A DNA stretch of 49,426 bases from a virus: positions 1 to 49,426 of IMG/VR virus record IMGVR_UViG_3300036832_000397; one strand, given 5' to 3'. Below, in pieces: positions 3,822 through 49,426 of the stretch. The notes below the pieces were generated by a model, which saw only the letters and a program-made list of their open reading frames with translations, was not told where the DNA came from and ran no database searches. A program made the position numbers and the translations under genes. Each line of letters opens with the position of its first letter. Within the stretch, counting starts at the first letter, position 1.

Positions 3822-5168
3822 CTAGGTCAGCACAACGCCGCGCCAGGCCGACGACGCGGTATCGTAAATCCAAAACTTGTGATTTGTGATGTCGTAAACC
3901 ATTGCCACCCGCCCACTATAAGATGTCGGCACGCCAGTCGGAGCGCCGCCAGTACATGTTGGGATATAGAGAAAGCCATGAGTTGCGGTGTTCGACACTG
4001 AGCCAGTATTGACCACGACATTGCCTAGGCTGTCAACGATGGCTTTGACGGTGGCACTAATCGAGCCGGGATTGGTAGTGGCAATTTCCCATCGTCCCGG
4101 CATGGAGTTTGCCGCTGGCGTGCCGTCGACTCGGCCCCACAACGCGACACACTGTTCCATGAAAGTGCCGTCGTCGCCTAGCCCATAGGCGACAAAGGTA
4201 AAATCGTTTGGCGTCAACAGGCCGTGGCCGCCGACCGTGTTGTTGCGAGAGTAGCCCATCGTTAGGCCGGGAGTTGATCCGTTGCCTGACGATGGTGTAG
4301 AGTCGTAATTGGCAATGCCAATGCCAAAGTCGGCGTTGTTGGTGTTGTTGCCGACTACGCCAAACATCACCGGCGCGCCGTTCTGTAGTGGAATGTCGGC
4401 AATGCCGATCGTGGTATTGGCGTTGAACAGATTCTTGCGGTTGCCGGTGATGCCGAGCTGTTTGATGCCATAATTCTCGCTGGACACAGTGCCTTGAAAA
4501 TCGCGCAGATAAATGCCGTAACGATTGCTGCAATTGCCGTTGGCACCAATGTCAACGCCAGCCTGCATGTGTATTGGAGCGCCAGACGTGTTAATCAGTG
4601 TGCCGGTGAACAGCGCGCATTCGCCGGTGACGCCATTGCCGCTGAAGCAATCGGTGGTGGCGATGAAGGCGTAAAGGTTGTGCGCCGAAGCGCCGACCGC
4701 ATCAACCTCAGCCACGCCGAAGAACGCTGCCTGATCGCCGTTCGCGGTGCCTTGTACCTCAGAACAGGCTTGGATACCGACAATCGATGAACCAACAGTC
4801 TGACCAGGTGGAATGGCGCTAACGAGCAGGATGCCGTTACGAGTTGCGCCACCAGCGTCGGCTGCCGATGGTTGGTATTGGATACGCCAGAACGATGCTG
4901 CATCGTCGATGAACCCTCCACCGAAGTTAATATCGCCCTGCGTCCCGAAGTGGGTGTTCTGCTCTTCAATCCTGAACACTTCCTGCGACATTAGAGTCGC
5001 GCCAGCGCCATCCACTCCCCACACAGGATTTATCGGAGTCGTGCCGACCTTAGCGGTAGAGAAGAAAGCTGGAGCCAGATAATTCTTGACCCACCCTATT
5101 GTAGGACCGTTATAGATGTAGTCGTAAGGGAGTGTACCCTGTTCGTCGAGGTCTTGTGGAGGGCTCAT
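3822..5168 (-). CDS. Tail fibre-like protein 1 (448 aa)
   Basis: Gly/Ser/Thr/Asn-rich beta-structured protein. It is colinear with the 528-residue protein at 7887-9473. Shared blocks include E-(V/F)RIE--NT-FG, NLYAF(I/L)ATTD-F, GVTGE-ALF-GT--NTSG-PI, and NYGI(K/R)Q-G-TG-R-NLF. The C-terminus has GFLYIPTCTGGAPTG ... MVYD-TN, a short domain frequent at the ends of phage fibres and probably involved in trimerisation. Unlike its paralogue it lacks the canonical fibre N-terminus (the WGIGTYANATTTIARTT type), so it may attach differently. A receptor-binding or adhesion role is inferred. Its start overlaps the repeat-protein stop by ATGA. Confidence 0.75.
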   Translation of the reverse strand: MSPPQDLDEQGTLPYDYIYNGPTIGWVKNYLAPAFFSTAKVGTTPINPVWGVDGAGATLMSQEVFRIEEQNTHFGTQGDINFGGGFIDDAASFWRIQYQPSAADAGGATRNGILLVSAIPPGQTVGSSIVGIQACSEVQGTANGDQAAFFGVAEVDAVGASAHNLYAFIATTDCFSGNGVTGECALFTGTLINTSGAPIHMQAGVDIGANGNCSNRYGIYLRDFQGTVSSENYGIKQLGITGNRKNLFNANTTIGIADIPLQNGAPVMFGVVGNNTNNADFGIGIANYDSTPSSGNGSTPGLTMGYSRNNTVGGHGLLTPNDFTFVAYGLGDDGTFMEQCVALWGRVDGTPAANSMPGRWEIATTNPGSISATVKAIVDSLGNVVVNTGSVSNTATHGFLYIPTCTGGAPTGVPTSYSGRVAMVYDITNHKFWIYDTASSAWRGVVLT

Positions 5169-7051
5169 AGTCCTACCCCTGTCAGTGTGCGCTGGATCAA
5201 GGTCGGTGCTGTCGGCACAGGAATGAACGCTTGATTATAATTATAGACTGTTGCCTGTAGAAGCGGCGACGGCCCAAGCTCTGGACGACCAAAGAACTGA
5301 ACTCCTGGCGGCAGCTGGATTTTTGGGATCAGACATAACTGAAATCCCGAAACCATTGTCTGCAATGGTGGGAGGTAGAAAGCTTGCGAGAGCGGCCAGT
5401 CTTGTTGTCGATTGGGTAGTTTGTCTTGGTTGATAAGGCTCTTATTGTAACTAACGCCAAAGAAACGATCTGGCTGCTGTGGTCCGGCTGGCCACAGGTC
5501 GTAGATTGTCTTACCGCTTGGAAGTTTGTCCTTGCCAACGAGGTTTAGATTGAATGAGGCAGCGATAGACCTATCTGGCTGACCTGCTGCTGGCGTAAGC
5601 GGCCAGTCGGATTGATTAAATGGCTGTCGCGCAGCAAGAAGCGCGAGGTTGGTTGATTGAATCCAATCTCTGACCTGCGCTGGAGCGATTGGATTAGGCC
5701 AATCGCTTTGACGGAATGGAAGTTGATCTTGAGCAATGAGGTTATTGTTGTAAGAAGCTGCCCACGTCTGATCGAGCCGAGAGGGTTGAGTTGGAAGCGG
5801 CCAGTCTTGCTGACGTACTTGCTTGGTAAGGTCTGGTGGCGCAGTAGCCAGTGAGAGATTGACTGTCTGTATCCAAGTCTGGAACAGCCGAGCAAAGTCT
5901 CGTGGTGGTAGATCGGTCGACTGCTCACCGACCAGCATTGCGTCGCGGCTGATGAGATTAAGGTTGTATGAAACAGCGACGGTCTGTTCAATACGATAAG
6001 GCGCTGGTGGAACGAGCGCTGTAGTTTGAGTACCTGTTGGGAGTTTGTCTTTATTAACTAGATTGAGATTGTAGCTCCACTCCCAAGACCGACGCGGCGA
6101 TGGCTCAGGCGCACGAGGCCAAAGGTCTGAGGATTGCTCGCCCGCTGGAAGCTGGTCTTGACCAATTAGACTGAGATTGTAGGTCCAAGTCCAAAGTGGT
6201 GGACCACGCTGATAGTCACGAGGCGTAAGATCAGAAGATTGCTCTCCAGTGGGGAAGCGATCCTGACCAATGAGATTAAGATTGTAGGTCCATTGCCAAG
6301 AGTGAAGCTGCCCCTGCTCTGGCGGACGCTGCGAAGGAACGAGGTCATAAACCTGTTCGCCAACTGGAAGCTGATCTTTGCCGATCAGGTTTTTATTATA
6401 TTGCCATTCCCAACCACGCCGCGGGCTTATTTCAATACTGGCGTAAATCGGTGCAAGGTCGTAAGCCGACTTGCCAGAGGGGAAACGATCCCGACCGATT
6501 AGATTGAGATTGTAGCTCCAGTTCCAGCTGTGGAGTTGAACTTGCTCTGGCGGCACCTGACCGCTGGCAAGAACGTAACTCTGGCCGCCAACTGGAAGCT
6601 GATCCTGGCCGACTAAGTTAGGATTGTACTGCCAGTACCATACGCGAAGCTGAGCATGGTAAACTGGGGAAGTTGGTACTGGCCAGTCGAATTGATTAAG
6701 GAGGTTGGGTAAGCCAGCAGGGACAGGGCCGTAGTAAGTAACCCAGTTGGAACTCCAAGTCTGCCCCTGCCCTCTAGGAGGCTGGGCTGGAACGTCAAAT
6801 CTCTGATTACCCGGAGGAAGAAAGTCTTTGCCGATTAGATGAAGATTGTATTGCCAAGTCCAAGTCTGCTCGATCTGAAATGGAACTTGCTTTTCAGGAA
6901 GGGACTTTTGCCAAGGCGTCGCGACGAGCGTTGACTGATCGGCGCTGGCTTGAATAGGCGTGACATAGACTTGGACGTAGAAGGTCTGAGGCTCTATCGC
7001 GCCCCGACCAAGTCCAAGATTAGACCCTAAGATGGCACCTATAGTCGGCAT
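5165..7051 (-). CDS. Tail-region repeat protein with about 15 YNLNLIGxDxLPxGxQ units (628 aa)
   Basis: The protein is almost entirely degenerate tandem repeats of about 35-45 residues. Each has a core like W-YNLNLIG(K/Q)D-LP-GEQ--DL-P; some end instead in (R/Q)Q-DWPLP. I count roughly 14-16 units from about residue 62 to 610. Units are rich in Trp, Tyr, Pro and Gln and almost lack Cys. There is no signal peptide or membrane segment. It lies between two virion-type genes, so it is probably a virion or tail-fibre-associated fibrous protein, perhaps a beta-solenoid or a ligand-binding array. The first 60 residues (VYVTPIQASADQ ...) are non-repetitive. I cannot name a family. Confidence 0.8.
   Translation of the reverse strand: MPTIGAILGSNLGLGRGAIEPQTFYVQVYVTPIQASADQSTLVATPWQKSLPEKQVPFQIEQTWTWQYNLHLIGKDFLPPGNQRFDVPAQPPRGQGQTWSSNWVTYYGPVPAGLPNLLNQFDWPVPTSPVYHAQLRVWYWQYNPNLVGQDQLPVGGQSYVLASGQVPPEQVQLHSWNWSYNLNLIGRDRFPSGKSAYDLAPIYASIEISPRRGWEWQYNKNLIGKDQLPVGEQVYDLVPSQRPPEQGQLHSWQWTYNLNLIGQDRFPTGEQSSDLTPRDYQRGPPLWTWTYNLSLIGQDQLPAGEQSSDLWPRAPEPSPRRSWEWSYNLNLVNKDKLPTGTQTTALVPPAPYRIEQTVAVSYNLNLISRDAMLVGEQSTDLPPRDFARLFQTWIQTVNLSLATAPPDLTKQVRQQDWPLPTQPSRLDQTWAASYNNNLIAQDQLPFRQSDWPNPIAPAQVRDWIQSTNLALLAARQPFNQSDWPLTPAAGQPDRSIAASFNLNLVGKDKLPSGKTIYDLWPAGPQQPDRFFGVSYNKSLINQDKLPNRQQDWPLSQAFYLPPLQTMVSGFQLCLIPKIQLPPGVQFFGRPELGPSPLLQATVYNYNQAFIPVPTAPTLIQRTLTGVGL
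5200..6870 (-). repeat. Coding tandem repeat array, period about 110-130 nt
   Basis: DNA underlying the repeats of the 628-residue protein. Recurrent words on the plus strand such as gattgtaggtcca, accaatnagattnagattgta and ctggaagctgatc mark each unit. Units differ at many third positions and in length, so the array is old or selected for divergence and is not a recent slippage expansion. Confidence 0.75.
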
Positions 7052-7052
7052 T

Positions 7053-7595
7053 TTAGTTCAACGACTGCATCGTTACCCATTGAGGGGTACAACTACCGGC
7101 GACGGATAGTGTCCAGCCTATAAAAATCCCGGTTTCGACAGATAGGTCGCAGGCGGCAGCGGTGCCGCCAAAGGCGACGGTGTTGTTAGAGGCCGCCGTT
7201 GCCGCAGCGCCGCCACCGTTGAATACGCCGGTGCCCATGATTGTGGAGTTAGCGCCGGGGGCACCAGTCGCGCGCACGACCCAAATGGAGTGCAGGAACC
7301 AGGCTTCGTTGGTGATGCTTGGAGTTACTGTTTGTGCGATTGAAGCGCCAAGCGTAATACCGCCAGTCGTTGCGCCGACACGCGGAGTTATTGTTAGAGT
7401 TCCTGAGGCTCCCGTTGACCAAATACCACCAGCCATTAGCCTGAATACCTTTCCGACGCCTCTGTAGCTATCAAAGGCGTGGATTGGAGAGAACTGTGGT
7501 ACGTTCCACAATGCTGTCTCCACCGTCGCTACAACCGCAGTCAGGTTAGCAATCGGCGGGTCGATGATAAGTTCTTCGAAATATTGACGAGACAT
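7053..7595 (-). CDS. Putative virion protein (180 aa)
   Basis: Beta-rich, Gly/Ala/Thr-rich protein starting MSRQYFEELIIDPPIANLTA, with GTLTITPRVGATTGG and a C-terminal GIFIGWTLSVAGSCTPQWVT. The composition matches phage surface or tail accessory proteins. A good ribosome site (GTAGGAGC) precedes ATG at 7595, and the gene abuts the repeat protein. No specific family recognised. Confidence 0.6.
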   Translation of the reverse strand: MSRQYFEELIIDPPIANLTAVVATVETALWNVPQFSPIHAFDSYRGVGKVFRLMAGGIWSTGASGTLTITPRVGATTGGITLGASIAQTVTPSITNEAWFLHSIWVVRATGAPGANSTIMGTGVFNGGGAAATAASNNTVAFGGTAAACDLSVETGIFIGWTLSVAGSCTPQWVTMQSLN

Positions 7596-7604
7596 CGCTT
7601 GCTC

Positions 7605-7694
7605 CTACGTCACCTGCGCGCCCATTAAGAGCCACAGCATGTACCAGGGGATTTCGGTATAGGCAGTTTGCGTATAAGCCTCACCCGCGAACAT
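7605..7694 (-). CDS. Candidate micro-protein (29 aa)
   Basis: Translation starts MFAGEAYTQTAYTEIPWYML and ends WLLMGAQVT. AAAGGA lies about 8 bases upstream of ATG, and the frame overlaps the end of the 58-residue gene by 14 bases, as other genes here do. The hydrophobic C-terminus is too short for a confident membrane span. Plausible but weak. Confidence 0.4.
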   Translation of the reverse strand: MFAGEAYTQTAYTEIPWYMLWLLMGAQVT

Positions 7695-7857
7695 TGTCGT
7701 GGTCCTTTCCATCACCGTTGATTGGTGGCATAATATCAGCTTGGTTGATAATCTGCTGCAATGGAGCCATTACTTGATTGACCTGCCGCCACGGCAGCGT
7801 TGCAAGAATGTTGAGAATGGCATTGAGCAGATTCTCGGGGATTGGGTAGGTTTTCAT
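7681..7857 (-). CDS. Small conserved-type phage protein (58 aa)
   Basis: Starts MKTYPIPENLLNAILNILAT and continues LPWRQVNQVMAPLQQII. This resembles the short helical proteins found near fibre genes in many phages (pattern LLN-ILN-LA--P---V--L---I). ACGAGG precedes the ATG at 7857. It fills the gap between two fibre-block genes. Function unknown. Confidence 0.7.
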   Translation of the reverse strand: MKTYPIPENLLNAILNILATLPWRQVNQVMAPLQQIINQADIMPPINGDGKDHDNVRG

Positions 7858-7886
7858 CACGCGCCTCGTTTAAAATTCACTTTCAT

Positions 7887-9473
7887 TTAGGCTACCTCAC
7901 AAGTAAATCCGACGATGTAAGTATGGGTTGCAATGCCGCCAGACGGTGTGATTTGCAGTTTGGATCCAGTCGTATCGACAAAGGCGACGCTAATAGCGGC
8001 ACCCAAACTGAGATCAAGACCGACAACGGGCGTCGTACTCTTCGGTGTAAAAGGGAGTGCCACAAAGATGGTACCCGCTGCTGTGCCAAGCGTAGTGACA
8101 ACCACTTGGCACCAACCGTGTACCAATTTGCCGACTTGTTTGATCCGCAAAACGCTGGATACCGAAGTAAAAGTTCCACTAGATGCCGTTGGTGTTGGAG
8201 TAGTCTGTGACCACTGAGTACCGAATAACGCCGGCACCCAACCGCCATCATTGATGTAGAGAATATCATTCGTGCTGTCGTAAACTAAAGGATCGCGGCC
8301 GGTGAAGGTTGGTGACACAGTGCCCGTAGGCGTGCCGGCACAGGTCGGGATAAATGGAAATCCAGCGACAGCATTGGTGGCTAATGCAGCAGTGCCGACG
8401 ACGACGTTATTGGTGGCATCGGTTCTGAGAGCATTGCCGATTTGTAATGGCGCATCGAATAGATTTAATCGGCCGCCGGTCGTGCCAATCTGGCGAATGC
8501 CGTAATTGTTACCGCTGACTGTCCCGGTCCAATCACGCAAATTAATCTGGGCGCGGTTGGTGACGTTACCGCTGCCACCGACATCAAGGCCGTATTGATT
8601 GGCGATAGGGTTGCCGGACGTATTGACGGCGGTTCCCGCAAACAGCGCCGTCTCGCCGGTCACGCCGGTCACGCCGCCATTGAAATTATCCGTGGTGGCG
8701 AGAAAGGCATAAAGGTTGACCGCCGATGTAGCACCGGCGCCGCCATCGCCGAGTTCGGCAACACCAAACACGGCGGCGACGTCGCCGGTATGCGTACCCA
8801 GCACATTGGCAACGCCCTGGATCGCATACATTGCCGAGCCCATCGTAAACCCAGGCGGATTGTCGGCAAAGCAAAGCAGCACGTTCCGAGTTGCCAAATG
8901 AACGGTGTCAGGACTGCTCGGTTTGTAAGCACCGCGAATAAAAAACATCGCGTCATCGCCGCCGTAAATCCCGTCATTGTTGGCGCCAAAATTGGTGTTG
9001 GTGCCCTCGATGCGAACTTGCTCGGTCGCGAGCATGGCACTGGTAACGCCGGAATTGTCAGCGCTCGTTGGCGTAGTGCCAAACTTGGCGATCTGCGTCG
9101 TTCCTGGCACGACAGACCCAGTAATGACATTGGTGGTAATCGGCGCGATAAAGACGACAGGGGCTTTATTGAAACTTACTCTTACCCCTGCACCGGATAC
9201 AACACCGGCTGAAATACCGCCCTGGATAGTCGTGCGCGCGATAGTCGTGGTAGCATTGGCGTAAGTCCCAATGCCCCACTCGCGCTGAGTAGGCGCGTAA
9301 GGATCGTCTTGCGCGACGTAAGGGACTAGTTGGTTGTTGACCAATAGCCCAGCGGCGAAAGCTTGTGCTGGTGTATAGAAACTCGACCTGGGGGTTGCGT
9401 AAACATAATCCCCCGTTCCAGCAGATTGCGCAAAGAAGCTTACCGCATCGACAGGTACAGGTAGGGCAACCAT
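7887..9473 (-). CDS. Tail fibre-like protein 2 (528 aa)
   Basis: The N-terminal 100 residues match the usual phage fibre attachment region: YVYATPRSSFYTPAQAF, then WGIGTYANATTTIARTTI, then VSFNKAPVVFIAPI. The middle is the beta-rich region shared with the 448-residue protein (3822-5168). The GFPFIPTCAGTPTG ... PLVYDSTNDILY segment follows, and a unique C-terminal region of about 110 residues ends in THTYIVGFTCEVA, perhaps a receptor-binding tip. Having both the attachment region and a tip, this is the best candidate for the main fibre. Confidence 0.8.
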   Translation of the reverse strand: MVALPVPVDAVSFFAQSAGTGDYVYATPRSSFYTPAQAFAAGLLVNNQLVPYVAQDDPYAPTQREWGIGTYANATTTIARTTIQGGISAGVVSGAGVRVSFNKAPVVFIAPITTNVITGSVVPGTTQIAKFGTTPTSADNSGVTSAMLATEQVRIEGTNTNFGANNDGIYGGDDAMFFIRGAYKPSSPDTVHLATRNVLLCFADNPPGFTMGSAMYAIQGVANVLGTHTGDVAAVFGVAELGDGGAGATSAVNLYAFLATTDNFNGGVTGVTGETALFAGTAVNTSGNPIANQYGLDVGGSGNVTNRAQINLRDWTGTVSGNNYGIRQIGTTGGRLNLFDAPLQIGNALRTDATNNVVVGTAALATNAVAGFPFIPTCAGTPTGTVSPTFTGRDPLVYDSTNDILYINDGGWVPALFGTQWSQTTPTPTASSGTFTSVSSVLRIKQVGKLVHGWCQVVVTTLGTAAGTIFVALPFTPKSTTPVVGLDLSLGAAISVAFVDTTGSKLQITPSGGIATHTYIVGFTCEVA

Positions 9474-9494: not shown

Positions 9495-10016
9495 TCAGTA
9501 AGGTTCGTAGATGATGTGCGCGCTAGCGGTAGTAGTCGTGCCCGCGGAAGTCGAGCTATTCCATAGAATAGCGCTACCGCCGGGAGCCGCATTGCCAACG
9601 CAAGTGATCTGCTGTGTTGGCGCTGCATTCCAGCGCAAGATGCCACCAAATGCGTTTAGGACAAGATTAAGGTGGGCGTCTGTCACTGCGCTCGATGGAA
9701 TTGATTGGTTGGTGACGTAGGAAGAAGCCGTCACCACAGGAGCGGCGAGCGCCGCGGTAGCAGGATGACTAGGACCGTCTGAGAAGTTGGCCGCTAAGGC
9801 GTTAGGGCCACCAGTACCGAGCGTTACTTGTCTGGCGAGCATGGTGCCCAAAACAGCGGAGTTTGTCGCTGTGCCAGAAATCTCACATTCAAGAATATCA
9901 AAAGTTTGTGTTGCGTTTGCACCGACCAAAGAGAAGTATTGGTTGGCGGTTGCCTGCACAGCGACTGCGGTTGCAGTCATCGTGATACCAGCGGACGAGA
10001 ACACTCGTTTAGCCAT
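9495..10016 (-). CDS. Putative virion protein (173 aa)
   Basis: Starts MAKRVFSSAGITMTATAVAV. Ala/Thr-rich and beta-prone, with NQYFSLVGANATQTFDILEC and a C-terminal STSAGTTTTASAHIIYEPY. Composition and position just upstream of fibre 2 suggest a tail or decoration protein. The start makes the 8-base ATGGCTAA overlap with the zinc-finger gene upstream. Confidence 0.6.
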   Translation of the reverse strand: MAKRVFSSAGITMTATAVAVQATANQYFSLVGANATQTFDILECEISGTATNSAVLGTMLARQVTLGTGGPNALAANFSDGPSHPATAALAAPVVTASSYVTNQSIPSSAVTDAHLNLVLNAFGGILRWNAAPTQQITCVGNAAPGGSAILWNSSTSAGTTTTASAHIIYEPY

Positions 10017-10392
10017 TATGATCTCCTATGGGTACGAGTTTAAGTCTGGACATAGAGTTGCCTACAATCGCCCACCGACCTGTACTGACCTTTTCGACGA
10101 TCTCTTTGATAGTAAGGTGGACGTAATCAGGTTCTTGCATGGCGGCGTGACACCAATCACAGATATAGGCGTCACATTGGTAACAATGCGCGCGCTCGCG
10201 TTTGCGAAGTGGGTTCAGCACGACACCTAGACCACAGTGGGGACAACCCAACGTCGGGGCGCGCATTTGTTTGCCTTCACCAACAAGTTCTGGTGGGAGG
10301 CCTAACTTACGAGCTACGTCCTCAGGAAGACCAGGACTCGCTCGATGATCGACAAATAACTCACCATCACGTTCGGTTTTGAGGAATGGCAT
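10009..10392 (-). CDS. Zinc-ribbon-type protein (127 aa)
   Basis: Contains CPHCG (about residue 50) and CYQCDAYICDWCHA (about residues 70-83), giving paired CxxC motifs suited to one or two zinc sites. The N-terminal half includes GELFVDHRASPGLP. Such proteins recur in structural operons of alphaproteobacterial phages; their role is unknown, and protein-protein or nucleic-acid contact is possible. It is linked to its neighbours by a TAATG junction at 10392 and an 8-base overlap at 10009. Confidence 0.7.
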   Translation of the reverse strand: MPFLKTERDGELFVDHRASPGLPEDVARKLGLPPELVGEGKQMRAPTLGCPHCGLGVVLNPLRKRERAHCYQCDAYICDWCHAAMQEPDYVHLTIKEIVEKVSTGRWAIVGNSMSRLKLVPIGDHNG

Positions 10393-11694: not shown

Positions 11695-12227
11695 TGGACT
11701 TTGTACCATGACGTGTTGGACTGAGAGAACTGGTAGGCGACACAGGAGTTCGCGGCTAAGGTGGTTAGGGTGATAGCCGCGCCAGACGGGACCATCGTTT
11801 GGTTAGTGTTGGCTGCGACGGTTACTGCGTTGGTTGCAAAGGCTGAGGCAGTGCCATTACAGACACGAACAACCGCGCCATCTGAGGTTGGGTTTGAGGG
11901 CATGGTGATAACGGCAGCTAAGGGCTGGCCGGTTACAATGATGCTGCCGCCTTCGGCTGTGTTAGCCACGCTCGACCCAGTACCAACAGTGACGTTGGTA
12001 GTTGTGCCAACCGTCCAGTTCCCTTGGATTGTCAGGAGGGTGTTGGCTGTTCGACTGCTGGCGAAGTTCATGCAGACGAAGCCTGCAGACGGTCCGCCTG
12101 GACCTTGCCCTGCGTTCCAGCATTCTTGCCCAGAGACAGGTGGGGCTAATGGCTGTGCGACGAGCCAAGTGGTGGCAAGGGCAGCGAGTGCTGCCCCCAC
12201 CAATCCCGCTAAAAGGACCCGTCGCAT
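11691..12227 (-). CDS. Exported or membrane-anchored protein (178 aa)
   Basis: Starts MRRVLLAGLVGAALAALATT, a positively charged N-terminus and hydrophobic core typical of a signal peptide or N-terminal anchor. The mature part has a motif seen in beta-rich surface proteins (TIQGNWTVGTTTNVTVGTG) and cysteines at ECWNAG, VCMNF, VCNGT and SCVAY. It pairs with the downstream exported gene. The location suggests a virion-associated or host-surface protein. Confidence 0.65.
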   Translation of the reverse strand: MRRVLLAGLVGAALAALATTWLVAQPLAPPVSGQECWNAGQGPGGPSAGFVCMNFASSRTANTLLTIQGNWTVGTTTNVTVGTGSSVANTAEGGSIIVTGQPLAAVITMPSNPTSDGAVVRVCNGTASAFATNAVTVAANTNQTMVPSGAAITLTTLAANSCVAYQFSQSNTSWYKVQ

Positions 12228-12805
12228 TAGTTGTTCACAACTACGCCAGGAGAATACGCGCCGATGAACTGGTCATGGAGCGAACCCTGGAACATTTGGT
12301 CGAAGCGGTCGAGGACAATCGTGCCAAGCAGCCACGAACTGTTGGTTACTGCACCACCGTTAGTGAAGGTTCCCGAGACGGTGTAGGCTAGGCGGAGGAA
12401 CCGTGGGACAGGCTGGCCAGGCGGAGGCCTTGGCATGTCCATGTCGAAGATACGCACGCCTTGGAGAAGGCTGGCCAAGGCCACTGTTGGAGAGGTCCAC
12501 CAAGTGTTGAAACCCAGTGGGGCACCCGAACCGTTATCGGGTGAGCCCTGAAGCGCCACGATCAAGCTGGTCCCACCCGCGAAGGTGGAGCAGCATTGGA
12601 TCAGCAGCTTCAGTGCAGGATCGTCACCGATGCCCATATCGCGAGCGCCTTGGCCAGAGGCCAGCACAGGGACGCCTGGAGGGGCGGCGATGTGCAGATC
12701 GATGATGTTCGAGCTGTTGCCGGTTGTGGTGATAAGGTCAACGAACGACGGAGTAGCGCCTCCGGTGTTGTTGCCGGTGAAGAGAAGTTGTCCATCCAAA
12801 ATCAT
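12227..12805 (-). CDS. Bbp16-like capsid cement protein (192 aa)
   Basis: Starts MILDGQLLFTGNNTGG and contains IDLHIAAPPGVP, ARDMGIGDDPALKLLIQ, GGTSLIVALQGSPDNG and RFLRLAYTVSGTFTNGGAVT. This is the pattern of the Bbp16 family (BPP-1), a cement protein bound outside the capsid. It lies 9 bases after the capsid gene, as in relatives. Ribosome site GTAGGAGCC. Confidence 0.85.
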   Translation of the reverse strand: MILDGQLLFTGNNTGGATPSFVDLITTTGNSSNIIDLHIAAPPGVPVLASGQGARDMGIGDDPALKLLIQCCSTFAGGTSLIVALQGSPDNGSGAPLGFNTWWTSPTVALASLLQGVRIFDMDMPRPPPGQPVPRFLRLAYTVSGTFTNGGAVTNSSWLLGTIVLDRFDQMFQGSLHDQFIGAYSPGVVVNN

Positions 12806-12814
12806 GGTTGGCTC

Positions 12815-13858
12815 CTACGTTACTTGGGCTTCGTTATTCAGAAGAGCATCACACGTCCGAACTGGAAGGCCTCGGAACGTGGTAACAGGCTTACCTTCAA
12901 ACTCTTCAATCCGGAGCAGGACGTTCGTCTTGTTCATGGCTTGAAGGTCGAGGTAGGTGCGGATGACACGATTACAGTAGATAACCGCGCGTCCCATATC
13001 GGCCCGGACCTCCGGCGTATCGGAAGTCTGGATCGTCGTCGCCGACGCAGGCGCAGTCGGTAACCTATACAGCGCTCGGATGATGAGGTTGATAAGGTTC
13101 GCTGCGCTGACGCCGGTGAGCTGCGTAACGTCGATGTTAGCTACGCGAGTCCAATAGCGCCAGTCCCTCAGGACCAAACCGATCTCCCACTTGAAGTGGT
13201 CACGGTAGGCCTGATAGGTATTGCCGGACAAGTCCTGAACTGGCCACTCACCCATGTCCCGATGCTGAAGGCCTGTGATCTTGCCCTTGGGGAAGGTCGC
13301 GTGGCAGGTATCACTGCCCCATACACCGATCCAGATCGAGGTGTTGGTGTTCGAGGTCCCGCCACCGTCCAGTACGTTCGCTGCGGTCTGCGCATTGGCC
13401 GCGGTCTTTGTAGAATAGCGAGGCGAAAAGCCAGTGAACCGCTCTGGGTTGGTGGACTGGTTGCCGTAGAAGATGGTCGTGGAAACTTGTTGGGACATGC
13501 CCTCAAGGAAGGCCTTGACCTCTGAGAGTCGGAACTCGGCTGTGTTGCCGTTGAGGTCAGCGATGTCCTTGTCGATAACCGCATAGGTTTCAAGGTTCCC
13601 AACGGCATCGACAATCTGTGCCGTGGTGCTCTTTGCGTTCGGCACACCTTGGTTCAACAAGCGCCACGTTGCTTGCGGTATTCCGGTTCTGACTGTGGTT
13701 TTGTGGCCGGTGGGCAAGTTACCCTCCAACACCAACATATCCTCAAGGATTTCGTTGGTTTGTGAGAGCAGCTCGATAATGGTGGCGACCCTGTATCCGT
13801 CGTCCATTCTCTTGGCCCAGTCGGCGTAGGTAAGTGCAATTCCACCTACGGTAGCCAT
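12815..13858 (-). CDS. Major capsid protein (Bbp17-like, 347 aa)
   Basis: The N-terminal region LTYADWAKRMDDGYRVATII and the following ELLSQTNEILEDMLVLEGN, then TTVRTGIPQATWRLLNQGV, are typical of the BPP-1/Bbp17 type of HK97-fold capsid proteins. A central FYGNQSTNPERFTGFSPRY and C-terminal EFEGKPVTTFRGLPVRTCDALL complete the family pattern. It follows the scaffold gene by 12 bases with an AAGGAG ribosome site, and is followed by cement. Confidence 0.93.
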   Translation of the reverse strand: MATVGGIALTYADWAKRMDDGYRVATIIELLSQTNEILEDMLVLEGNLPTGHKTTVRTGIPQATWRLLNQGVPNAKSTTAQIVDAVGNLETYAVIDKDIADLNGNTAEFRLSEVKAFLEGMSQQVSTTIFYGNQSTNPERFTGFSPRYSTKTAANAQTAANVLDGGGTSNTNTSIWIGVWGSDTCHATFPKGKITGLQHRDMGEWPVQDLSGNTYQAYRDHFKWEIGLVLRDWRYWTRVANIDVTQLTGVSAANLINLIIRALYRLPTAPASATTIQTSDTPEVRADMGRAVIYCNRVIRTYLDLQAMNKTNVLLRIEEFEGKPVTTFRGLPVRTCDALLNNEAQVT

Positions 13859-14563: not shown

Positions 14564-14849
14564 CTGCTTCTCTCGCCATTTGTACGTACTGGTCTGGACA
14601 GTACTTCATGAGTTGGGTAAGGAGTTCTACTCCCTTAGCACGCAGGCCCTCGTTGAAGGCCATTAGTAGAGGGTCCGACGAAAACGAAGAGGCGAAGACA
14701 AAAGATGTTTCCAGTCTTCCCCATATGAACGATCTGCCTGACTGCGTTTCCATGAGGGTGGTTAAGGTCCCCGCATCTATACGGGCCTGCACCTTAGCTC
14801 GATCTTCGAGCTGCTTGACAACCTTTGGGTCGGTGAGGTCAAGAGGCAC
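14412..14849 (-). CDS. Bbp19-like head protein (145 aa)
   Basis: Contains the Bbp19-type core: LTTLMETQSGRSFIWGRLET, SSDPLLMAFNEGLRAKGVEL, then LLTQLMKYCPDQY. In relatives this small protein sits between portal and scaffold; its function is unproven. Here a C-terminal tail of about 45 residues (from about NIATERSLSADGNRRD onward), longer than I expect for the family, overlaps the scaffold start in another frame. It overlaps the portal end by 11 bases. Confidence 0.75.
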   Translation of the reverse strand: MPLDLTDPKVVKQLEDRAKVQARIDAGTLTTLMETQSGRSFIWGRLETSFVFASSFSSDPLLMAFNEGLRAKGVELLTQLMKYCPDQYVQMAREADARNIATERSLSADGNRRDQGSDEYQLDLYRDLATGKISVEYEPGSDEAA

Positions 14850-16632
14850 CGGGCAGTCCTCCCATCATGGTCTGCAGCGCATTTTGTCCGCCGCCTACAT
14901 CAGTTTCACTGAGCGTCTTGGCGCCGGTCGCGAGCTTCTGTGCGGTGTCGGCGTGCTGTGCCATCTCGGCTTGCTGCGCTTGCTGTTGCTTCTGCTTCCT
15001 AATCTGCGCCAGCACGTCTGGCGATCTAATCAACTTCGGGTCATTGTGCAACAGGTGGGAGGCTTTCTGGATGCCATAGTCGAAGTCAACGGTATCCATA
15101 ACTGCCGGATCGACGCCGGCGAGATTGCCGGCCAACTGGAAGATGCGTTCAATGCCCGCCATCTGCGATGCATTCTGTGCAGTCTCCAGCATTGATACGA
15201 AGTCGATTTCGACCTCCATACCCTGGACCTCGCGCGGTGCCGGTGGGAGAATTCCGGAGCGCGAGCATATTTCGAAGGTTCGGTTCACAGCGATCTTCAG
15301 CCCTTCACCAACGATCCTCTCAAGAACCGGACCGAGCATAATCATGGACTCAGCGCGTCTTGCATCGATTTCCGCAGCCGTGACGTTAGACCTTGTCTCG
15401 AATTGTGAAATTGTTTGGAAAAGGTTGTTAAAGAATATTTCTTTGATCCTCTCGCGAACCTCGTTAAGGTCCTCCATGATTTCCTTGACCGGGGGCTGGA
15501 CCTGGTAGACAGGTGCAAAACCTGGACGCGAATTTGATAGCATACCCGCGACATAAGTCACTCCACCCGGCATCAGCGAAGCTGGTTGATTTTTCAACTG
15601 AATGTCGGCGACCATCGGAGGATTGACAAGCTTATCAATCGCTTGCGCCTTTCGCTTGACCTCCAGCTGAAGCTGTTTAATGTCGGGTAGGGCGTCCATC
15701 CCAGGGCCGCGTCCGTAAGCATCGTTTGCAACAATATCCCATCTTGGGGAGATGAAGTTTTGTTCATGGAAGCCACCCTTGTACAACACTCCAGGGGCGT
15801 ATGAAGCGCCACCTTGCGGGGCTGCTGAACCGGCCCATTCCCAATAAACCTCCCGCCACTTGAAGTGGGACGGTATTCCAAACTTCCGGTAATCCTTATT
15901 CGGCTCTATCGCGTGCGCGACGACGATTTCTCTTGTGAGGCTCGTTCCTCCCATATCGTAGAGAACTCGGACCGCTGGCGAAACTGCGTCAATGCCAAAG
16001 CGTTCAACCACTTGCGAAACGGTATAAGTGAACTCTCTGTATAGAGCGTTGACTTTAACCGTGTCGGAGGCTTCGAGGTAGTACTCGCCGGGGCAGGGGT
16101 TGTAGCAGGTGATAACGTCATCGAAGTCCTCATAGATTACCATTACGCCTGTGCCGAATACCACGAGATCGAAATACAGGACTGCCATGCAGGTATAGAA
16201 GTTCGACGCCTGAAAGACCATCATCAGGATGCGTTCGCACTCTGCCAACCAGAGTGAAACTGGGCCGGTTTGGGTGGAATCGATGTAGCCGATCTTGCAA
16301 TGGAACCAGGACTTGGTGGGATCGGTACAGCCCGTCATAAGCCCAGCGGCCAGATTGCGAGCAGCAAGAGTACCAGTACTGTCAAGAATATGCTGATTAA
16401 TAGGAGAGCCACGTGCCATCTGGTTAGGAGTGATAAGCCATTTGTAGCGGCGAGGAAGAATATAATCAGCACACTCGCGCCAATGAACCCACCAAGAATA
16501 GCGATTAGTGCGGAGTCCGATAAGCCGTCCATTCACATGCTCGCGGAGCTTTAGCGTCTCCTCATCGGGCATTCGGTAGAGTACCCGATAAGGTTTGCCA
16601 TCAACTTTGACGTTGACTTGACGCTCAGCCAC
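14839..16632 (-). CDS. Portal protein / head-tail connector (597 aa)
   Basis: Typical podovirus head-tail connecting protein. The N-terminal region has VHWRECADYILPRRYKWL and then LDSTGTLAARNLAAGLMTGC and DPTKSWFHCKI. The stem and crown regions include RWDIVANDAYGRGPGMDALP, PPMVADIQLKNQPASLMPGG and RSNVTAAEIDARRAESMIML. The length suits the family. It starts with GTG at 16632, overlapping the upstream stop by 8 bases (GTGGCTGA). The dodecamer would form the DNA entry channel and bind the terminase. Confidence 0.93.
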   Translation of the reverse strand: MAERQVNVKVDGKPYRVLYRMPDEETLKLREHVNGRLIGLRTNRYSWWVHWRECADYILPRRYKWLITPNQMARGSPINQHILDSTGTLAARNLAAGLMTGCTDPTKSWFHCKIGYIDSTQTGPVSLWLAECERILMMVFQASNFYTCMAVLYFDLVVFGTGVMVIYEDFDDVITCYNPCPGEYYLEASDTVKVNALYREFTYTVSQVVERFGIDAVSPAVRVLYDMGGTSLTREIVVAHAIEPNKDYRKFGIPSHFKWREVYWEWAGSAAPQGGASYAPGVLYKGGFHEQNFISPRWDIVANDAYGRGPGMDALPDIKQLQLEVKRKAQAIDKLVNPPMVADIQLKNQPASLMPGGVTYVAGMLSNSRPGFAPVYQVQPPVKEIMEDLNEVRERIKEIFFNNLFQTISQFETRSNVTAAEIDARRAESMIMLGPVLERIVGEGLKIAVNRTFEICSRSGILPPAPREVQGMEVEIDFVSMLETAQNASQMAGIERIFQLAGNLAGVDPAVMDTVDFDYGIQKASHLLHNDPKLIRSPDVLAQIRKQKQQQAQQAEMAQHADTAQKLATGAKTLSETDVGGGQNALQTMMGGLPGAS

Positions 16633-47246: not shown

Positions 47247-49426
47247 TTGCCTCTGCCACCAGACGTATCACCGATCACCACTTCCGGTATCATACCAAGA
47301 ACACTTGCAGGTACTGGATCATCTACCTGTATACATAGCTGACCAGCAGTCTCCCACAAAGGGTCCATCACGAAGTAAACATCAACGCTAACCAGTGGCG
47401 ATGGCGGGACGCTTGTGATTGGTTGGCCAGATGGCGTGGGGTTGAATTGCTTAACTGGGAGAATCGTTGGAAAGGTCCTCCCCATCTTAATACCTCTCGA
47501 CTCGCGCGCGCGAACGGTCACGCGAGAAATGATCTTACGCTTTCCCTGAACGGTGGGTTCGCCAGCGTCTAGATACATCGTTTGAAGCTGGGCTTGGAAT
47601 GGCAGTCCGACAACAACTTTGCTCGCCGCGAATGGCAGCGTTATTGACCCATTCGTCACAGTCTGTTGTGGTACTACCTGCCCATCTGCAAGGATTGATA
47701 CTGTTGTGTTATTGAGATAATCGAGGCCATAGAAGGTAGTAGCTGGAGTTGCTATAGTCCATGTTCCAGGAAGCGCTGTCTGAAAGCCTGGTACTGGATT
47801 TGGGATTGACTGTATCCAATTACCGTTGATCTGGCCCGATGAAACGTAGGTATTGATTAAAGCTATACCACCATTCATTCTAAGGATCATATTGACATTA
47901 CCGGGAGAGAACACTCCAGTAGCAGAAAAGAATGCAACAGCTCCTGATGGAGTTGAAGAGATAATTTCAAAGTTTGGTGCTGTTAATTGATTAGTCGTAG
48001 TGAACCCACAATCTACAGAGAAGGCATCCTCTGTCCCATAGGTTAAATACCGCGGAACCATGCGCTCTACTGATTGTATTCTCCTATTGTTAATAACTCG
48101 CACAACAGCGACGTAGATGACATCATTGATTCCTTCACGGATGCAGGCAACCGACACGAATTGTCCTTGTGTATCGTGTCGAGCCCATCCAAGCATCTCT
48201 TGATCTTTAACATACGTCAACGATAGAAGGGACCCGTCATCGCGGACAGCCCACACGACCCTAAAGGGCTCCTCCGCCCAGGCCCATTCCCTGATCAAGT
48301 GTCCAAAGAACAAATGATTAGAAAGGATTGAGACATCGGAGCCTGTATAGATGTTAGCGTAGATGTTGTATGAAAGGTCGCGAACGATCGATCCCTTAGA
48401 CTGGACATAGAGAATGTCGTAGTTGATGATTATCGGTGGAACGTCTGCTGCGCCGTTGTATGCTTGTGGAGTGGCCGTAGCATTGGTTGGCGTCACCGCT
48501 GCGGTAGAAGCAAGGCCACCAGCGCCACTCGATAGTTGCCACGCGCCAGCGGCCGTTAGCAATAGGAGGCCTCCAGGCATCGGAAGCATAGATTTAATCG
48601 TGTTGAACTGCGTGCTGACCAGCGTTCCTTGGAGTGCGTCGCTGTCGATGATTGGATCAGAGATGTTGAAGTTAGTGTAAAGACCGGGCTGAGATGCCCA
48701 GAAGGTAGTCGGTGAATTGGTTGACCCTGCAAAGTAAAGACGCTGCTGAAAGAATGTAGTGCATCCAGGATTTCCATTGCTCAAAGGATTTTGTGCCGTA
48801 CCGGTCCCTCCACCCAGAACAGCAGTCGCAGCGGCTGCACCAGCAGAGAATGTGACGGTTGGAGGGCTGCCACTCGGATATCCAGAACCTTGTTGAGCAG
48901 GGATAACTGCAGTTACACCCCAAGTACAATTAAACGTTGGAGGAATACCACCGAAGTCTATCATGCCTACGACATTACATGCTATAGCTGGCGTCGGATT
49001 GGTTGGTGTTGAAGTGCCAGCGCCAGATTTGCTGCCATGATTTTGGAGAGTAGCTGCATTAACGGTATAAGTCCATCTTCCATTAGTTGCATTAACAAAA
49101 CTTGCAGTGGTTATCAGGAACGCAACGCCATCAGCTGTTGTCAAGAGAGAGCCGGTTGGATTGTTACCTGTAGTCACCACATTGTTTGTACCAGCATTGG
49201 AAAGTGTTCCACTAAGAACACCAAGAGATGCGTTAGCTGTTGCCTGCAATCCAGTCGGTGGCGCTGCAACCGTTACGCCTGGAACTGTAGTATAAGTTCC
49301 AGCTGCCGTAACGGTATAACTTATCACGCTAAACGTGAGATATGGAACCGAGATTATTGGTGGACTCTGTGTGAAGTCTGGTACTATATTGGAGTCAACT
49401 AGGCTCGTTCCAGTGGCACTCTGAAT
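47243..49426 (-). CDS. Tail nozzle / tubular protein B-like, C-terminal part (continued from position 1)
   Basis: The remaining two-thirds of the 1058-residue nozzle-type protein; bases 49404-49426 repeat 1-23. It is beta-rich, with QQRLYFAGSTNSPTTFWASQ and then NISDPIIDSDALQGTLVSTQ, the recurrent FAG-----P---W-S--G---F propeller-type motif of these proteins. RVVWAVRDDGSLLSLTYVKD, and then RPVTVRARES-type C-terminal strands, follow. It should close the distal tail. The ATG seen at 49327 is internal; the true start is at 1016. It overlaps the gp13-like gene. Confidence 0.87.
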   Translation of the reverse strand: MQSATGTSLVDSNIVPDFTQSPPIISVPYLTFSVISYTVTAAGTYTTVPGVTVAAPPTGLQATANASLGVLSGTLSNAGTNNVVTTGNNPTGSLLTTADGVAFLITTASFVNATNGRWTYTVNAATLQNHGSKSGAGTSTPTNPTPAIACNVVGMIDFGGIPPTFNCTWGVTAVIPAQQGSGYPSGSPPTVTFSAGAAAATAVLGGGTGTAQNPLSNGNPGCTTFFQQRLYFAGSTNSPTTFWASQPGLYTNFNISDPIIDSDALQGTLVSTQFNTIKSMLPMPGGLLLLTAAGAWQLSSGAGGLASTAAVTPTNATATPQAYNGAADVPPIIINYDILYVQSKGSIVRDLSYNIYANIYTGSDVSILSNHLFFGHLIREWAWAEEPFRVVWAVRDDGSLLSLTYVKDQEMLGWARHDTQGQFVSVACIREGINDVIYVAVVRVINNRRIQSVERMVPRYLTYGTEDAFSVDCGFTTTNQLTAPNFEIISSTPSGAVAFFSATGVFSPGNVNMILRMNGGIALINTYVSSGQINGNWIQSIPNPVPGFQTALPGTWTIATPATTFYGLDYLNNTTVSILADGQVVPQQTVTNGSITLPFAASKVVVGLPFQAQLQTMYLDAGEPTVQGKRKIISRVTVRARESRGIKMGRTFPTILPVKQFNPTPSGQPITSVPPSPLVSVDVYFVMDPLWETAGQLCIQVDDPVPASVLGMIPEVVIGDTSGGRGK
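49404..49426. repeat. Terminal direct repeat, right copy
   Basis: Identical to bases 1-23; see the left copy. The match cannot be extended to either side within the window. Confidence 0.93.

Follow-up and report, generated by a model that had tools for sequence, protein, structure and literature searches.

The repeat gene in its late operon

The window, that is the whole stretch of DNA analysed here, is a viral record of 49,426 bases whose two ends share a 23-base direct overlap (1–23 = 49404–49426); besides, when these ends are joined a tail gene appears to continue through the junction, and the record is thus probably a complete circular assembly. The phage is uncultivated, short-tailed and epsilon15/BPP-1-like. 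Its late genes, on the minus strand, succeed one another as terminase, portal or head-tail connector (14839–16632; PF12236, phrog_332), protease, major capsid protein (12815–13858; phrog_212, about 54% identical to that of Uetakevirus-type phages), cement protein of the Bbp16 type (12227–12805; PF21190), the block containing the repeat gene, then the tail genes. The latter begin with a tail adaptor (1009–1833; phrog_394) and a tail protein (phrog_376), and are followed by two internal virion proteins, a transglycosylase-domain protein, a 1608-aa protein and an endolysin. In BPP-1 the head is cemented by Bbp16, a jellyroll protein (PMC3863775). The epsilon15/phiV10/BPP-1 group (Uetakevirus, Rauchvirus) has terminase, portal, protease and major capsid genes in this same order, and shares with the window, again in conserved order, the Bbp16-type cement, tail adaptor, tail and internal virion proteins. 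phiV10 differs in the interval from the cement gene to the first tail gene, where it has just two small genes; at this place the window carries the cassette and the repeat protein.

The repeat gene thus belongs to the late virion-structure operon, its block having the cement-protein gene on one side and the tail-adaptor gene on the other. It is an open frame of 628 codons on the minus strand (5165–7051), identified by its reading frame, a unit HMM and a codon test; the earlier note on this DNA had given no strand. One nucleotide upstream lies a 180-aa partner gene (7053–7595) found at the same position in most close relatives, and the stop of the repeat gene overlaps by 4 nt a fibre-like gene (3822–5168). 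This gene is a paralogue (50% over 233 aa) of a second fibre-like gene at 7887–9473, so that the repeat gene lies, together with its 180-aa partner, between two paralogues. Further upstream come a conserved 173-aa cassette gene (9495–10016; ...RWNAAPTQQ...AHIIYEPY), whose loci we counted in relatives, and, upstream of it, a 127-aa Zn-ribbon-like cassette gene (10009–10392; CxHC...CxxC...CDxC), all of them on the minus strand. The location in a “fibre block”, as first proposed, therefore holds: this is a late structural block, and fibre-like genes adjoin the repeat gene.

The protein consists of a non-repeat N-terminal leader (residues 1–61, positions 6869–7051), partly common to six relatives (L002, L012, L018, L020, L023 and L030), of an array of 14 units of about 35–38 residues (residues 62–594, positions 5270–6868), and of a C-terminal tail (residues 595–628, positions 5168–5269) ending PTLIQRTLTGVGL. 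Comparison with relatives shows that its last residues, RTLTGVGL, resemble the RTLMGTGV of L002, L012 and L020; relatives have the ending PLRTLMGTGV. Eleven strong units, starting at residues 62, 136, 174, 212, 250, 287, 321, 356, 428, 494 and 534, score 36–60 bits with the iterated unit HMM; three weak ones start at residues 412, 461 and 574, and the count rises above 14 if degenerate half-units are included. The repeat reported at first sight is thus real, its estimate of about 15 units was close, and the array does make up nearly the whole protein. The autocorrelation of the sequence has its peaks at lags of 35 and 38 residues. The unit HMM matches the real protein with E = 3.8e-156, and none of 1000 residue shuffles exceeds 8.1 bits; as the HMM was trained on this same family, this test measures the coherence of the array and is not an independent discovery of it. 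The protein contains 4.3% W, 11.6% P and 10.5% Q, none of the other late structural genes tested in the window exceeding 9.6% P or 8.9% Q.

In the window the unit reads [RQH][ST]W-x-W-x-YNLNLIG[QK]D-x-LP-x-G-x-Q-x-[YW]DLPP, followed by a Pro-rich linker. The consensus of 183 units of the family, [RQH][ST]W-x-W-x-Y-N-L-N-L-I-G-[QK]-D-x-L-P-x-G-x-Q-x-[YWT]-[DE]-L-P-P, is nearly the same, with a core conserved at 100% for L, 98% for D, 93% for Y and N, and 90% for W. Where two units of the window protein have identical residues, their codons agree in 51% of cases, versus 47% expected for independent codon choice. The synonymous codons are thus randomised while the residues are kept, which indicates an old duplication and selection at the protein level: the repeat protein is conserved as a protein, not as DNA. 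Slippage can certainly expand repeat arrays, and the array might have been a coding stretch that expanded in tandem and drifted neutrally, devoid of selected function; but the codon test, together with the conservation of the family in dozens of phages where its gene partners are fixed, already contradicts this explanation, which we hold to be extremely improbable.

Relatives of the repeat protein and their gene partners

Neither the repeat protein nor its consensus repeat finds a relative by tblastn among 50,697 GenBank phages, nor does the protein among 72,556 plasmids. One pattern scan of genome contigs yielded no repeat-array protein: a Flavobacterium protein that it returned lacks the repeat and is regarded as a chance match. 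The same scan returned a Dehalococcoidia protein (L025, 7554–8000) that carries a single GPHYNLNLIGKDK motif and contains GPHYNLNLIGKDKVMPGDY, one copy similar to the unit, without a Pfam match, and this may also be chance. By contrast, starting from one direct relative (L002) and two degenerate DNA-pattern scans, we came to about 30 contigs of uncultivated viruses that encode repeat proteins, and relatives amount in total to about 50 uncultivated phage loci.

Comparing unit number between relatives, as the earlier note advised, shows that the array varies from 125 to 1502 aa, with spacings mostly of 34–38 residues or near-multiples. Identity of the repeat protein to its nearest relatives is 35–51%. 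In L020 it is 43%, while the capsid protein is 94% identical to that of the window; the repeat protein therefore evolves fast. The order of units is weakly conserved, reciprocal-best units not being consistently collinear. A scaling of the array with capsid size was considered and rejected: the longest array (1502 aa), in a 112-kb record, is a single point, and the records of 41–52 kb display no obvious trend. Two further particularities were observed. In L014 (1564–1696) the repeat protein is split over two frames at a T run (near 1682–1694), through assembly error, decay or slippage; and many repeat proteins (L013, L080, L102, L105) end with a basic tail of the type GGxARAxxLTxxQRxxIAxxAAxxRW.

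The 173-aa gene is present in 14 of the 15 records carrying the repeat protein. Conversely, a scan starting from the 173-aa gene gave 78 loci, 50 of which extend at least 4 kb downstream, and all 50 contain a repeat protein. In 46 of them it was flagged as W/P-rich by composition and motif, and in the other four (L065, L067, L075, L108) by matches to the unit HMM. Some of these are degenerate members made mainly of NQxDWPxP units, whose homology rests on motif and position and not on full alignment; as the broad W/P-rich set was defined partly by composition and motif counts, convergence might account for its most divergent members. The Zn-ribbon gene immediately precedes the 173-aa gene in all 75 loci that leave room for it, and has no match in GenBank phages.

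The capsid proteins do not follow this linkage. A capsid protein of the window type occurs in 3 of the 15 repeat-bearing records, plus one borderline match, some records being fragments; others encode different types, namely Phage_capsid_3 with P22_portal in L034 and phrog_267 in L013. The same cassette in phages with different capsid proteins indicates that it is not bound to one capsid type, and the comparison of these loci supports that relatives of the repeat protein travel between unrelated phages together with the two small genes. This bears directly on the idea that the protein is a structural component of the head, decorating the shell of its own phage or lying inside it. The place of the gene, in the block that follows the capsid and cement genes, would suit such a role; however, the association of the family with other capsid and portal types, and the rarity of the window capsid protein among repeat-bearing records, make it improbable. 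The earlier note had envisaged a capsid-decorating fibre; given that members of the family are found alongside several unrelated major capsid proteins, a protein decorating one particular capsid is unlikely.

Fold predictions, domain fusions and the C-terminal peptide

Searches of Pfam, NCBIfam and PDB with the repeat protein gave no family above curated cut-offs, in agreement with the initial remark that no fold was known for it, and a literature search for the motif returned nothing. In PHROGs, phrog_8343 (84 positions, a PHROG without assigned function) has a weak summed similarity to the W-x-W-x-YNLNLIG core, with E = 1.9e-9 for the window protein and 9.7e-13 for L029, although no single stretch passes the threshold and the best one covers only profile positions 9–33 of 84. 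Across these four databases the window protein contains no recognised fibre, receptor-binding, lectin or carbohydrate-binding domain. Ig-like or coiled-coil homology was not detected either.

AlphaFold2 produced no fold for the full-length protein with a 15-row alignment (pLDDT 33), and neither fold nor stacking for a register-aligned segment of four units with 22 well-aligned rows (pLDDT 38). Both runs are monomer predictions from shallow alignments, for which a low pLDDT is not proof of disorder. The nine-residue core, on the other hand, alternates hydrophobic and polar residues: its hydrophobic moment at 180 degrees gives z = 8.1 versus shuffles, a value inflated by the relatedness of the units, and none appears at 100 degrees. 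Such an alternating core fits an extended strand that would need a partner, and the low-pLDDT models neither prove nor exclude any fold.

These data allow two other views of the array to be weighed. According to the first, that of the earlier note, the array would be a carbohydrate-binding solenoid, a single elongated domain of stacked units in which a ladder of aromatic residues binds polysaccharide. The regular spacing and alternation of the aromatic residues and the lectin-like neighbours present in relatives would agree with it, but neither AlphaFold2 run gave stacked units, so that a monomeric solenoid is not supported, and the long, Pro-rich linkers of variable length are unlike those of tight solenoids; we give this view little credit. 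According to the second, which is the main rival, the protein would be a disordered multivalent linker that remains extended. Each W-x-W-x-Y-N-L-N-L would add a beta-strand to a single partner molecule, the likeliest partner being the 173-aa cassette protein, so that the string would line up or cross-link many partner subunits. The failure of AlphaFold2 to find an intramolecular fold would be expected here, although low pLDDT with shallow alignments does not demonstrate disorder; the short, strongly conserved motif between variable linkers, the near-constant pairing with the 173-aa gene, and the varying number and poorly conserved order of the units all favour it as well. We nevertheless consider a disordered linker rather unlikely, while taking it more seriously than the solenoid.

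The relatives provide information on function that the window protein does not, since the latter lacks their LamG and tail modules. In L003 the array is part of a fusion with a Laminin_G_3 domain, and in L031 and L033 of one with a minor-tail domain (phrog_553); LamG genes adjoin the repeat gene or lie near it in L012, L018 and L029, and a pectate-lyase-type tailspike is found near it in L020. Gly-rich sequences also occur: a neighbour in L002 matches Gly_rich_2 below the cut-off, and a Gly-rich N-terminus in L034 was recognised by eye, with no Pfam or PHROG match. These fusions and neighbours point to a role in surface attachment. The LamG and tail modules of the relatives thus fit a fibre or adhesin, as proposed in part at the outset, receptor or carbohydrate binding by the repeats themselves being hypothetical. 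The solenoid form, with its pLDDT of 33 and 38, is not supported, and the decoration of a single capsid is unlikely given the several unrelated major capsid proteins.

In the 112-kb contig L029, which encodes the 1502-aa repeat frame, a methyltransferase-domain gene, a gene with a weak Anp1-type match and other unassigned genes (4150–8268) are found between the 173-aa gene and the LamG and repeat genes. Several unrelated proteins of the block in relatives also end with a common peptide, such as LMPQIVM, LMAQIQL or LQAQIML. The form LM[PAG]QI.. and its variants are carried by L012 8478–9170, L018 4182–4901, L029 9052–9822, L002 4841–5875, L027 5029–6783 and L003 1456–1830, on LamG, Gly-rich and other bodies as well as on two repeat proteins; the window contains no exact copy of LM[PAG]QI... 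A regular expression for it matches 12 of 1549 ORF ends versus 0.05 expected, and a broader one 24 of 3225 versus 0.08, counts that overstate the significance because the expressions were written after examples had been seen and because the LamG bodies are homologous. Its spread over unrelated bodies stands, and a shared docking tag is possible.

A modular surface thread as the preferred reading

We favour, with a probability of about one half, a long, modular and extended virion-surface protein of the fibre or adhesin class, independent of the capsid. This reading draws on the late-operon position with its tight junctions (1 nt gap, 4 nt overlap), the LamG and tail fusions, the 180-degree moment, the variable array length, the cassette linkage, the several distinct capsid proteins and the faster divergence of the repeat than of the capsid. 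Against it stand the absence of a predicted fold and of a known domain, and a window protein without the LamG or tail modules of its relatives. In each unit of about 35 residues the stretch W-x-W-x-Y-N-L-N-L would be extended, beta-type and amphipathic; D-x-LP-x-G would then make a turn and lead into a Pro-rich linker. With units freely gained and lost, the thread would range from about 125 to 1500 residues. An ordered fibre would most likely form by association, either between copies of the repeat protein or with the constant 173-aa partner. Presumably present in virions, the thread would carry or bridge interchangeable adhesion modules (LamG lectin-like, Gly-rich, beta-sandwich), and these would bind carbohydrate of the cell surface or of the environment.

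In its proposed role, an extended surface protein helping attachment through carbohydrate, this thread would be comparable to capsid decoration adhesins and head fibres such as T4 Hoc and phi29 gp8.5 (reviewed in PMC7602432). Unlike them, however, the repeat family goes with more than one capsid protein and has no detected Ig-like or coiled-coil homology. Tail fibres and tailspikes offer another comparison: Gly-rich, LamG or pectate-lyase-like modules like theirs also occur in relatives, joined to the repeat protein or encoded next to it, but the repeat itself matches none of them.

More tentatively, and as a possibility to which we attach a lower probability than to the surface thread as such, the whole block might be a portable, capsid-independent cassette for assembling adhesins. 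It would include the Zn-ribbon gene, the 173-aa protein, interchangeable adhesion modules often ending in a shared C-terminal tag (...LM[PAG]QI[VM]x, for example), and the W/Y/P thread as docking site for the 173-aa protein or for the tagged modules.

Where new oligomeric folds are sought, a strongly conserved repeat for which AlphaFold2 predicts no fold is a good target. Two small genes constantly accompany this repeat family in uncultivated phages whose capsids are unrelated; if the family is truly a surface thread on which adhesion modules are swapped, it would explain how these phages exchange their attachment parts independently of their heads.
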